Source: Candidatus Eiseniibacteriota bacterium
GTDB taxonomy: Bacteria; Joyebacterota; Joyebacteria; Joyebacterales; Joyebacteraceae
Assembly: GCA_030609365.1 (NCBI GenBank)
Contig: JAUWCJ010000009.1
Location: 1-39,542 of the forward strand
Direction: 5' to 3'
Length of the DNA stretch: 39,542 nucleotides
The notes beneath the pieces were generated by a model, which saw only the letters and a program-made list of their open reading frames with translations, was not told where the DNA came from and ran no database searches. The position numbers and the translations under genes were made by a program. Below, piece after piece: positions 30,315 through 34,866 of this stretch; position 1 is the stretch's first letter, and every line of letters starts with the position of its first letter.

Positions 30315-33300
30315 TCACCTCAGGAGCACGACCTTGCGCTCGAGCGTCTTCTGTCCCACGCGCACACGAACGAAGTAGACACCACTGGCGACGGGATCGC
30401 CGTGTTCGTTGGTCCCGTCCCAGGTCGCGTCATACTCGCCCGTCTGCGCCGCCCCCTCGCGCAGCGTCCTGACCAGTCTACCGGAGATATCGAACACGCC
30501 GACCGACACCCACCGGTAGTCCGCCGCGACGCCGTAGTGGAGACTGAGTGTCTGTGAGAACGGATTCGGCCTTGGGCTCTCGAGCCACGGGGATATTCGC
30601 GAGTTGGGTGTCGGGATCTCCCAAGGGCCGTGCGTTGTGGTCACGCCCCACTGCTCCGCGACAAGGAGGCGGTACGAGTACGTCGTTGACTGTTCAACCG
30701 AGCTATCCACGAAGTGGTATCGCCCGTTGTCACCCGGTCGCAGGAGGCTGTCGCTCAGAGCGCGGTATCCGCCGGACCCACTGCCGGCCGCGCGCTCAAG
30801 ACCGCATCCGATGGGTTCGTCGGCCGGCGTCAGGTACCAGGACAACGTGACGGAATCAGGTTCCGCTTCCCAGGAGAAGTAGGAGAGGGCGGCGGGTTGC
30901 TGCCAGCTCTCCATCGAGCGGAGAAGCAGCCCGAGCATCTCCGTGGCCGGGTCGGTCTGAAGATAGTAGAAAGGGAATCCGAAGTAGGCGAACGTGCCGG
31001 TCCCATCGTCAGGGTACCGCACCGTAGCGCAGGGGCGCTCGCTCAGGTCCGGGTTGATGTGCGAGTCGAAGAGGTAGAGCCGTCGCGTTTCCTCGAGCGG
31101 CCGCACGATCTCGCAGTACGGGACGCCACCGTACGTCTGGTAGCCGTCCCCCCAACTCCCGAGCGTATCGACCGGAACGTCGGGAAGACCCAAGGTCCCC
31201 GTGGCGATCCCGCCAAGGAAGGCATAGCCGTACTGCCACGGGTACGACTCGTTCCAGCCTGCTCCGGCGTTCCTCAGACTGTCGATCCCGATGTGGTCGA
31301 AGATGAAGTCACCTGGCCCACAGGTGGCCTCGTACCAGAGGTGGTCTGTGCCGCCCATGGTCGCCAGCGAGGATTGCCCCTCCAGGATGACATTCCCACC
31401 GGCTCGTACGAATCCCTCAAGATAATGATAGCTATTCTCCGCCTGCACCGGGCGGAGGAACCCGCCCTGCCGGTCGAGCGTCCAGAGCACGGTTCGGTAG
31501 CGGCCCAGCTCTTCCATTGAGGGCAGCGTGGGCAGATAGTTCTCGAAGTGCTCGAAGGGGTCCCAGACGTCGCAGCTCTCGCCCGCGAGGACCGCGCCGT
31601 AGAATGCATCGTGTGTGGCTTCCGGAACGTCACCACCGAACCAGTCGTCCACACGCAGGAGTGGCCGGTCCATCGGTGCGGGAACCGTGCGCAAGGAGAC
31701 GCTGCCGGTGGTCACCGCGCCGTTCTCGTCCCGGGTCTTCATGAACACGACCGTGTCCGCGGGGTCCGGGCGTAGCACGAACTCGTAAGGCGACTCGTGC
31801 CATTCCAACCATGCCGTCGAATCGACGACCGCGATCGCGACCGAATCGGCGAGGCCACAGTATGAGGACGCGTCTGAGGCGACAGTGAAGACGAGCCGCT
31901 CGCCCTCATAGACGACGGCCGGCGGCGTGCGGTCTCCCGCGCGACACCCATGGAACGTCCGCGCGCCTGGGTCGAAGTTGAGGTTCACTGTGAGCGCCGG
32001 GCGGAGCGCCGCGTCAGTTACGAACTCATAAACCACGGGTGATGGGTCCGCGACGTCCTTGTCGTCGATCGCGCGGATGTACAGGATGTGCGAGCCGGCG
32101 TCCAGATCGTCGAGTGTCAGCGATGTCTGGTGTGCGGGCAGCGGCTCCCAATTCGGTGGCCGGTCCCGGCGTGCGCCGTCCCACGTGTCGATGTCCGACT
32201 CGACCGCGTACTCGAAGCGTGCGATGCCCCCATCGAAATCCATTCCGATCCACTCGAACGTCGGTCGCATGGTAACTGGTGACACTGAGGCGGCGCAGTT
32301 GGCGATGCGCATGGTCTCAGGGGGCAGGTTAGGGTCTTCTCCGGTCACACCTGCGACGGCGGCCGTTGCAGCGACGTTCACTGCGGCGAGCGCCCGGGCG
32401 AAGTCAGGATCCAGGTTGTTGAGGATGTCGTCGGTGGTGTGCCGGTAGGGCGATGCGATGGTTGTACCCATGTCGACGACGTTGTACCTAGCCTCCCAGA
32501 AGCTCGTGTGGTCGCTCGCGCCGATCGGGCGGATGCAGGTCTGAAGCTCATACGGCGTATACGTGTGGGCCAGAGTCTGCATGTATCCGGCGATGGCGAG
32601 CGACAGGGAGTCAGTGAAGACGATCACGGGGGCCTCCTCGGGCGACGGCTCGATGTACCCGAGGCAGTCCATGTTGAGATAGACGACGATGTCCAGCGAT
32701 TCCTCGACTGCCTCGGCGACGAAGTGCCGGCTGCCCCACAGCCCCACCTCTTCAGCGGACCAGCAGGCGAATATGATACTGCGGTCGGTGGAGACACCCT
32801 CAAGCAGGCGGGCCGCCTCGAGCACAGCGGCCACGGCGGTCGCGTTGTCGTCGGCGCCGGGCGCAAGGGCGAAGGGGTCGTAGAAGTTCTCCGCGTTGAC
32901 GGAGTCGTAGTGTCCTCCCAGCACAACGTACTCGGATGGTCGTGTCGTTCCCTCCTTGACGGCTATGATGTTCATGGCATCGACGCTGTCCTGGAACGAC
33001 ATTGTCCGGAAGGTGTCAAGGTGAACATCGGCGTATCCGTACTCCTCAAACCTGTCCCGGATCCAGTAGCCTGCTGCCCAGCAGGAGTCGACGATGACGT
33101 ATCGGCTTCCGAAATCCTGAAGGCGTTGGATGGTGCCGACTATTCTGGTCAGGCTGGTGGAGTCCATTAGTGCGGCGACGAGCGAGTCGGGAGGGGTCCG
33201 GGGGAGGAGCTCATCCGGTCCGCGCCCGTGCAGCGGTGTGCCCTCGGGTCGCTCCCATGTGGGCGCTTCGACCGCCCCGAGCGTCACCGCCAGGGGGTCG

Positions 33301-33395
33301 CGGGAAGGTGCTTCTCGCGCCGCCGCTCCATCGACGGGCACTACCGTCAACCAGACGGCGGCGAGAACAGGGATAACGGGGCAGCGTGCCGTCAT
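30315..33395 (-). CDS. secreted M28-family metallopeptidase with FlgD-like C-terminal domain
   Basis: The 1026-residue product is a zinc aminopeptidase or carboxypeptidase for export. It has a signal peptide (about 1-26), a catalytic M28 domain (about 70-345) with GGHYDS, PGADDNATAVAA, CWSAEEVGLWGS, LNMDCLG and SDHTSFWE carrying the metal ligands, then HTTDD. Several beta-sandwich modules follow. The last 90 residues are a FlgD-type Ig domain: SPRPNPFSQTLSLHYGV, VFDISGRLVRTL, GVYFVRVRVGQKTLERKVVLLR. Such ends act as sorting or anchoring domains in FCB-group bacteria. The ATG at 33395 follows GGAGGTAGTTG; the TTG three bases earlier is less likely. Confidence 0.93.
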   Translation of the reverse strand: MTARCPVIPVLAAVWLTVVPVDGAAAREAPSRDPLAVTLGAVEAPTWERPEGTPLHGRGPDELLPRTPPDSLVAALMDSTSLTRIVGTIQRLQDFGSRYVIVDSCWAAGYWIRDRFEEYGYADVHLDTFRTMSFQDSVDAMNIIAVKEGTTRPSEYVVLGGHYDSVNAENFYDPFALAPGADDNATAVAAVLEAARLLEGVSTDRSIIFACWSAEEVGLWGSRHFVAEAVEESLDIVVYLNMDCLGYIEPSPEEAPVIVFTDSLSLAIAGYMQTLAHTYTPYELQTCIRPIGASDHTSFWEARYNVVDMGTTIASPYRHTTDDILNNLDPDFARALAAVNVAATAAVAGVTGEDPNLPPETMRIANCAASVSPVTMRPTFEWIGMDFDGGIARFEYAVESDIDTWDGARRDRPPNWEPLPAHQTSLTLDDLDAGSHILYIRAIDDKDVADPSPVVYEFVTDAALRPALTVNLNFDPGARTFHGCRAGDRTPPAVVYEGERLVFTVASDASSYCGLADSVAIAVVDSTAWLEWHESPYEFVLRPDPADTVVFMKTRDENGAVTTGSVSLRTVPAPMDRPLLRVDDWFGGDVPEATHDAFYGAVLAGESCDVWDPFEHFENYLPTLPSMEELGRYRTVLWTLDRQGGFLRPVQAENSYHYLEGFVRAGGNVILEGQSSLATMGGTDHLWYEATCGPGDFIFDHIGIDSLRNAGAGWNESYPWQYGYAFLGGIATGTLGLPDVPVDTLGSWGDGYQTYGGVPYCEIVRPLEETRRLYLFDSHINPDLSERPCATVRYPDDGTGTFAYFGFPFYYLQTDPATEMLGLLLRSMESWQQPAALSYFSWEAEPDSVTLSWYLTPADEPIGCGLERAAGSGSGGYRALSDSLLRPGDNGRYHFVDSSVEQSTTYSYRLLVAEQWGVTTTHGPWEIPTPNSRISPWLESPRPNPFSQTLSLHYGVAADYRWVSVGVFDISGRLVRTLREGAAQTGEYDATWDGTNEHGDPVASGVYFVRVRVGQKTLERKVVLLR

Positions 33396-33435
33396 CAACT
33401 ACCTCCAGTGCGCTAAATGCGAGGTCTCACAACCG

Positions 33436-33544: not shown

Positions 33545-33573
33545 TTGCGAAAGCATGCAGAGTGTGGTATCAT
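33545..33573 (+). promoter_or_regulatory. candidate extended -10 promoter for the small secreted protein pair
   Basis: TTGCGA (33545-33550) and TATCAT (33568-33573) are 17 bases apart, with TGG just before the -10 (extended -10). It lies about 50 bases before the GTG at 33626 and is divergent from the peptidase promoter. Confidence 0.55.
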
Positions 33574-33625
33574 CCGAAACTGGATGTGCTTACCATAGTG
33601 CTGTGAATGGAAAGGAAGCTCCATT

Positions 33626-34045
33626 GTGAGAACGGCTATCGTTCTCCTCGTAGTCCTTGCGTTCGCGTCCATCGCATCCTCGAACCCATCGCCCCTGTGG
33701 CCCGGGGTCTTCATCGACTTCGATGAGGACGGCATCCCGGACAGTGACATCCACACGTCGGTCTACCCTGCCCCCTATGTCACGCTCTCTGCCTACCTGG
33801 CCCTGTCGTGCAACGACCAGCCAGGAGAGGAGTTCACGTCGATCTCGTTCGCGCTGACCGACGTGATGGCGATGTGTCCCGGCGTGTTCGCGCCCCCGAC
33901 CTTCACGAACCTCCTCCCGGGCGACCTCGCCATTGGGAACGTCTACACTGGAATCACGCTGGCGTCTACCGAGTGCCTGACGGCCCCCATCGTCTACTTC
34001 GGGAGGCTCGACCTGTTCTACCTGGGCGGGGCATGCGAGATATAG
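33626..34045 (+). CDS. small secreted protein, copy 1, ending at an in-frame UAG
   Basis: The 139-residue product has a signal peptide (MRTAIVLLVVLAFASIASS), then a DFDEDGIPDSD loop like a calcium-binding TSP3 repeat, then the block PPTFTNLLPGDLAIGNVYTGITLASTECLT and FGRLDLFYLGGACEI. It is closely related to the gene at 34285, which continues past this point. Here a TAG at 34043-34045 interrupts the frame, and the paralogous C-terminus follows in the same frame (see next entry). GTG start, preceded by AAAGGAAG. Function unknown; the family is not one I recognise. It may be a functional short form, a recent pseudogene, or a readthrough product. Confidence 0.7.
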   Translation: MRTAIVLLVVLAFASIASSNPSPLWPGVFIDFDEDGIPDSDIHTSVYPAPYVTLSAYLALSCNDQPGEEFTSISFALTDVMAMCPGVFAPPTFTNLLPGDLAIGNVYTGITLASTECLTAPIVYFGRLDLFYLGGACEI

Positions 34046-34231
34046 ATTCTGGATCACCCGGAGTGGCCCAGGTGGGTCGTCGACTGCAACAGCAACGTCT
34101 ACTACTACGGTGTGGCAAGCTACGGCGGAGTTGGAATGGAACCAGAGTTCATCGGCGAGGGGGAGATGGACTGCGTGGTCGTGGCGGTGGAGGACATCAC
34201 CTGGGGCATCATGAAATCGATGTACCGCTAG
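34046..34231 (+). pseudogene. conserved in-frame continuation of copy 1 after the UAG
   Basis: The frame stays open for 61 codons after the UAG and ends at TAG 34229-34231. It reads ILDHPEWPRWVVDC ... VEDITWGIMKSMYR, matching the end of the gene at 34285 (VLDHPDWPRWIVDC ... VEDITWGAIKSMYR). No start codon with a ribosome-binding site lies in between. It is therefore the original C-terminus of copy 1, either lost by a stop mutation or sequencing error, or still translated by readthrough. Confidence 0.7.
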
Positions 34232-34284
34232 CGGGTCAGCGCGACCCTGGCGCGCCACCTGCGCTGAAAGAAGGAGTGTGCTCG

Positions 34285-34866
34285 ATGAGAACGTTGATAG
34301 TGATTGCCGCGGTTGTGGCGCTTACCCTCCCGGCCACGGCGGGGATGAACCCGGACTGCAAGGTCTGCATCGACTTCTCCGGGACCGCGAACTCGTGGGA
34401 CGACGTGCAGAGTCGCATCGATCCGCTGCCATACACGGCGTTCGTGGCTTACCTCTGTCTCTTCCAGACTACCGGCGTCACGGTCATCTGCTTCCGGGCA
34501 TCCGTGACGCCCGCTATGTCCTCGCCGCCCGTCTTCACGAATCTCCTTCCCGGGGATCTCGCGATCGGGACCTGGGAAGAGGGCATATCTATCGCGTCGA
34601 CGGAGTGCATAACGACGCAGTTCCTGTACTTCGGGAAGTTCGACCTGTTCTACCTGGGAACTCCCGGCGACATCATGGTCCTTGATCACCCGGACTGGCC
34701 TCGATGGATTGTGGATTGCCATGAGCCGTATGGCGAGGTGGACTACTACTGCGTGTGGATGCACGGGGGTGTTGGCAAGGACGCCATTGAAGGCGACGAG
34801 GACTGCTTCCCCGTCGTGCCGGTGGAGGACATCACTTGGGGCGCCATCAAGTCGATGTACCGATAG
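34285..34866 (+). CDS. small secreted protein, copy 2, intact
   Basis: The 193-residue product has a signal peptide (MRTLIVIAAVVALTLPATAG), several cysteines (CKVC, LCLF, ICF, TECIT, VDCHE, DC) and the family block PPVFTNLLPGDLAIGTWEEGISIASTECIT, FGKFDLFYLGTPGDIMVLDHPDWPRW, VPVEDITWGAIKSMYR. AAGGAG precedes the ATG by about 8 bases. It is a tandem duplicate of the preceding gene, 53 bases after that gene's second stop. The N-terminal region differs most, where copy 1 has the DFDEDGIPDSD loop. Unknown function; probably periplasmic or surface. Confidence 0.8.
   Translation: MRTLIVIAAVVALTLPATAGMNPDCKVCIDFSGTANSWDDVQSRIDPLPYTAFVAYLCLFQTTGVTVICFRASVTPAMSSPPVFTNLLPGDLAIGTWEEGISIASTECITTQFLYFGKFDLFYLGTPGDIMVLDHPDWPRWIVDCHEPYGEVDYYCVWMHGGVGKDAIEGDEDCFPVVPVEDITWGAIKSMYR

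Follow-up and report, generated by a model that had tools for sequence, protein, structure and literature searches.

A tandem pair of secreted paralogues in Candidatus Eiseniibacteriota, one probably broken by an in-frame UAG that cuts off a candidate C-terminal tag

Among the tandem multicopy families of bacteria, nonsense pseudogenes can be recognized by one stop codon in a reading frame that is intact for the rest, by intact paralogues nearby, and by the scars that deletions have left at the corresponding site in relatives. Readthrough of in-frame stops has also been proposed for bacteria in general (PMC7918605), and in such systems, as in pyrrolysine decoding, an in-frame UAG is followed by an open, coding-like continuation. 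The first member of the gene pair described here (copy 1) resembles both. It differs from tandem-family pseudogenes in nothing essential, the part lost including a phylum-specific C-terminal tag, whereas it is unlike readthrough and pyrrolysine systems in that its UAG is not conserved between genomes and that no decoding tRNA or synthetase was found in the genomes searched. The tag itself recalls the T9SS type A/B CTD, PEP-CTERM, GlyGly-CTERM and MYXO-CTERM signals, which are likewise short conserved C-termini on unrelated signal-peptide proteins, but its motif has neither a hydrophobic segment nor a basic cluster, and it is much shorter than the T9SS CTD. The best-scoring fold matches of the second member of the pair (copy 2) are cohesin domains (types I and II, of cellulosome scaffoldins); unlike these, the proteins of its family consist of one domain with a tag helix of their own at the C-terminus.

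The pair lies in a stretch of 39,542 nucleotides (the window), in which the following features were distinguished:

33545..33574, + strand: promoter-like site upstream of copy 1, TTGCGA-N18-TATCAT with extended -10 TGnTATCAT, from the locus alignment
33626..34045, + strand: copy 1 up to and including its TAG, 139 aa, recognized from translation, family membership and the fold of copy 2
34043..34045, + strand: in-frame TAG of copy 1, aligned with M131 of copy 2 in a variable family column
34046..34228, + strand: part of copy 1 beyond its stop, silent, with 61 open codons for the domain's last strands and the C-terminal tag
34184..34228, + strand: C-terminal tag of copy 1, AVEDITWGIMKSMYR, followed by TAG at 34229-34231
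34232..34284, + strand: spacer separating copy 1 and copy 2, with a homologous spacer in the relative G002
34285..34866, + strand: copy 2, an intact secreted protein of predicted cohesin fold, 193 aa
34819..34863, + strand: C-terminal tag of copy 2, PVEDITWGAIKSMYR, predicted to form a separate helix (183-192)

Translation of 33626-34231 gives a GTG start codon at 33626, 139 codons, the TAG at 34043-34045, 61 open codons and a second TAG at 34229-34231, which bears out the coordinates and frame of the original prediction that tandem secreted paralogues are present here, one of them split by an in-frame UAG. A signal peptide is found at the N-terminus of both copies, and in copy 1 the part before the TAG comprises this signal peptide and most of the cohesin-fold domain. 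The proposed homology of the 61-codon continuation to the C-terminus of copy 2 also holds, since the tail matches in two places (copy 1 / copy 2: LDHPEWPRWVVDC / LDHPDWPRWIVDC and VEDITWGIMKSMYR / VEDITWGAIKSMYR) and copy 1, when read through the TAG, has 51% identity to copy 2 over the whole read-through length, far above chance. The sequence was also searched for an in-frame start with a signal sequence 3' of the stop, by which the tail could be used separately, and none was found. The site at 33545..33574 is a putative promoter.

Copy 1 and copy 2 belong to a multicopy family of exported proteins of about 190 aa, with seven matches in the source genome and more than 100 in 20 genomes of its taxonomic family, a set that represents the whole phylum as sampled. 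The relatives of this deep-sea seep bacterium are Candidatus Eisenbacteria / Effluviviaceae, the seep lineage Ca. Effluviviacota (PMC11323493). No model in Pfam or NCBIfam corresponds to the family. A structure model of copy 2 built with 28 sequences (pLDDT 87.6) consists of a beta-sandwich and, after it, a helix at the C-terminus (183-192) that is predicted with less certainty; its top Foldseek matches among solved structures are cohesins (E from 5e-5 to about 1e-3), with TM up to 0.66 by target length and about 10% identity. No sequence match of the family to the Pfam cohesin model (PF00963) was found at E<=1. On the modelled structure, copy 2 is cohesin-like in fold, yet it is no Pfam cohesin. 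In a genome of another genus (G019), family members on contig G019:C275 (L029, L011; L042) are nearly identical to those of contig G000:C31 of the source genome, a likeness that points to cross-binning of contigs or to recent transfer.

The stop codon of copy 1 occupies the column of M131 in copy 2, as predicted, within a strand modelled at 128-133. Across 51 full-length relatives, however, this column is variable, with Glu commonest (15), Met in 7 and twelve other residues also occurring; methionine was consequently not favoured as the ancestral residue. The stop was probably created, not very long ago, by a point substitution in a Glu GAG codon, because Glu is the commonest residue of the column and GAG is the state in C31a, the paralogue of the source genome nearest to copy 1. 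Since the stop falls at strand 128-133, normal termination drops the last strands and the tag helix, and the truncated product would probably be unfolded. An in-frame stop thus truncates a recognizable homologue, and the codon has its standard meaning in the genome, as is documented below. Copy 1 is most likely an ordinary gene copy broken by a nonsense mutation.

The meaning of UAG was evaluated by tallying stop usage in the window and in the retrieved loci. UAG ends 15 of the 19 long plus-strand open reading frames of the window, 24 of the 32 tagged genes genome-wide, and 86 of 120 tag ends over all loci retrieved. In the source genome RF1 is present, above the cut-off, and a CUA anticodon is absent from the 39 tRNAs found there using a tRNA model that can miss tRNA-Pyl. 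PylS is below the cut-off in 20 of 20 genomes, in a search for which one of 14 control genomes (a set that includes Methanosarcina acetivorans) lies above it. These results agree with the earlier argument that UAG is not reassigned genome-wide. If UAG were a sense codon, through pyrrolysine or a reassigned code, then the open frame of copy 1 would be accounted for, and this frame alone speaks for such a reading; most genes end in UAG, RF1 is present, and neither a CUA tRNA nor PylS was detected in the searches just given, so that the probability of a sense UAG is vanishingly small. Two candidates were rejected on these grounds: a reassigned UAG, as UAG is the main stop, and a suppressor or pyrrolysine tRNA, as the suppressor search that had been proposed yielded none among the tRNAs found.

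A leaky or regulated UAG would produce little full-length tagged protein together with much truncated, untagged protein. Such readthrough would be consistent with the open, coding-like tail, with the position of the stop, which divides an untagged from a tagged form, and with the reported purifying selection on bacterial in-frame stops. Against it, the truncated form would be without core strands of the modelled fold; the region 3' of the UAG has no RNA structure and folds like shuffled sequence (z = 0.17), by which structure-driven readthrough was ruled out; suppressor tRNA was not found and RF1 is present in the source genome; and the stop is confined to one genome, copy 1 having been lost in its sisters. 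Programmed readthrough or suppression, which the original prediction had raised, is on this evidence improbable.

The state of the tail does not by itself separate these readings, because an intact, coding-like tail is expected for a young lesion and equally for readthrough. GC3 is 0.84 in the tail and 0.85 in the head of copy 1, and the profile score of the tail (residual z -1.0, with four departures at conserved columns) falls within the range of intact paralogues. An escape model in which 4.2% of substitutions make stops, and in which 0.1 indels per substitution are assumed, gives a 183-nt tail a probability of 0.27 of escaping a second lesion at 0.05 substitutions per site, with a 95% bound at about 0.12 substitutions per site. 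As a tail of this length may thus stay free of further lesions up to about 0.1 substitutions per site, the intact frame is a weak argument both for function and for a recent lesion; the tail of copy 1 is probably intact simply because there has been too little time for decay. From among a recent lesion, a sequencing error and readthrough, the three explanations put forward at the outset, the recent lesion emerges as the best, and readthrough has gained no support.

In 19 relatives the search for an orthologue of copy 1 came up empty; of two scans of GTDB contigs, the first yielded none and the second only other family members. The conservation of the stop in orthologues, which had been suggested as a check, is therefore not seen, the syntenic sites being empty or scarred. 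G001, G002 and G005 share synteny with the source genome at this locus, and each of them has an orthologue of copy 2 but no copy 1. In G002, where the copy 2 orthologue, as far as it is present, is 91% identical at the nucleotide level, the promoter-like block of copy 1 sits just upstream of copy 2, and between the two lies a scar with matches to the spacer and to the ~15 nt at the 3' end of copy 1 (alignment score 30; best of 2000 shuffles 26, 0/2000). G005 has a longer scar which, with a one-base shift, reads as the family-member end VED...W...K.MY (score 27; best shuffle 26, 0/2000), while the site in G001 shows neither copy 1 nor a scar. Decay of the tail in relatives had been named as evidence against a functional stop, and the relatives go further than this, with G002 and G005 keeping only scars of the 3' end. 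On the simplest reading of the aligned loci, a copy at this position would be ancestral and would have been lost repeatedly, being present but broken in the source genome, and the family would turn over by tandem gain and loss, in a process of birth and death. Between the copy 2 orthologue of G005 and the downstream gene lies a right-handed beta-helix protein (L040:3710-5524, minus strand) with the same C-terminal tag.

The same comparison bears on an error of sequencing or assembly, or a mixture of strains, in which case the true or majority allele would be a sense codon and copy 1 would be intact. One wrong base suffices for this, the remaining frame of copy 1 being intact; moreover, the source genome is in 206 contigs, of which the window is one, and its relatives are described as metagenome-assembled. 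However, random single-base errors are seldom found in consensus contigs, another genome has a further family member with one TAG, which lies at a different position (G019:C72), and the scars show that copies at the position of copy 1 do die. An error is accordingly rather unlikely, and a nonsense-broken copy remains the preferred reading.

The conserved tail does not appear to be special to copy 1; the original prediction did not foresee that it is shared across the phylum. Its last ~15 residues have the form PVExx[ST]WGxIKxLYR-stop, and the beta-helix protein beside the G005 orthologue has the same residues at its end. A DNA search with the pattern W-x-x-[IV]-K-x-x-Y-R-stop, with the reversed pattern as control, gave 32 exact matches in the source genome against 0 for the reversed pattern. 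The number of matches per genome ranges from 13 to 59 among the 20 genomes of the phylum, and the 41 genomes from other families have almost none, save for one with six. Examples are as follows:

34184-34228 and 34819-34863 of the window, with L120-L149: C-terminal tag, found at 32 places in the source genome

The consensus is [ST]-P-V-E-x-x-[ST]-W-G-x-[IV]-K-[AS]-[LM]-Y-R-COOH, in which the search pattern itself dictates W, K, Y and R but neither the conserved P-V-E nor the preceding S/T. Proteins that bear the tag are exported and unrelated to one another; a signal peptide is recognizable in most of them, and they include beta-helix, MAM, choice-of-anchor J and DUF4350-like proteins as well as unknowns; the one choice-of-anchor J protein is a further likeness to C-terminal sorting tags. 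No model in Pfam or NCBIfam, the known CTERM families included, matches the tag, and the literature searched yielded nothing on a tag of this kind in Eisenbacteria or related phyla. By analogy with known CTERM tags, the analysis favours, with some reserve, an undescribed C-terminal sorting or anchoring tag borne by dozens of secreted proteins per genome and sparser in related lineages, of which copy 1 would be a natural mutant lacking the tag. Such a phylum-wide tag on exported proteins, without a family model, would offer a handle on how the cell surface is built in an uncultured phylum.

Two further observations concern C-termini. A tagged open frame without a signal peptide (L134, G000:C88) lies behind an unrelated frame and is probably the 5'-deleted remnant of a tagged gene. 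A large exported peptidase-like protein is encoded at 30315-33398 of the window (minus strand), and its orthologue L040:6326-9475 has, as read from the sequence, a FlgD/T9SS-type C-terminus, so that the lineage may have two kinds of C-terminal signal.

In one of the 32 tagged genes (G000:C55), a TGA interrupts the frame within the motif GFG-TGA-GPL:

L189:1501-1899 = G000:C55:11460-11858, + strand: tagged secreted member of a UGA family, with relatives L190-L203

The TGA is at the same place in relatives from most of the 20 genomes, with the family motif G[FWY]GFG-TGA-GP[LF], and a hairpin that begins 15 nt after it is conserved, with changes on both sides in five of six pairs and a covariation score of 0.51 versus 0.20 in shuffles (0/500). 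The source genome has a tRNA-Sec with anticodon TCA and SelB above the cut-off; in the other five genomes of its genus, selB was not found above the cut-off, and the copy of the UGA family in the source genome is without about 59 internal codons. The family, of which no Cys form was seen, is not recognizable among the 87 prokaryotic selenoprotein families listed in PMC9312934, and it has no match in Pfam or NCBIfam. This stop is probably recoded. With its in-frame UGA found across the phylum, its covarying SECIS-like hairpin and a genome that holds the Sec machinery, the family is a candidate new selenoprotein family that can be tested as such. None of these marks is shared by the UAG of copy 1, and the conservation of the UGA across the phylum, which the UAG lacks, further disfavours readthrough of copy 1; the two genes form a worked contrast between a recoded and a dead stop.
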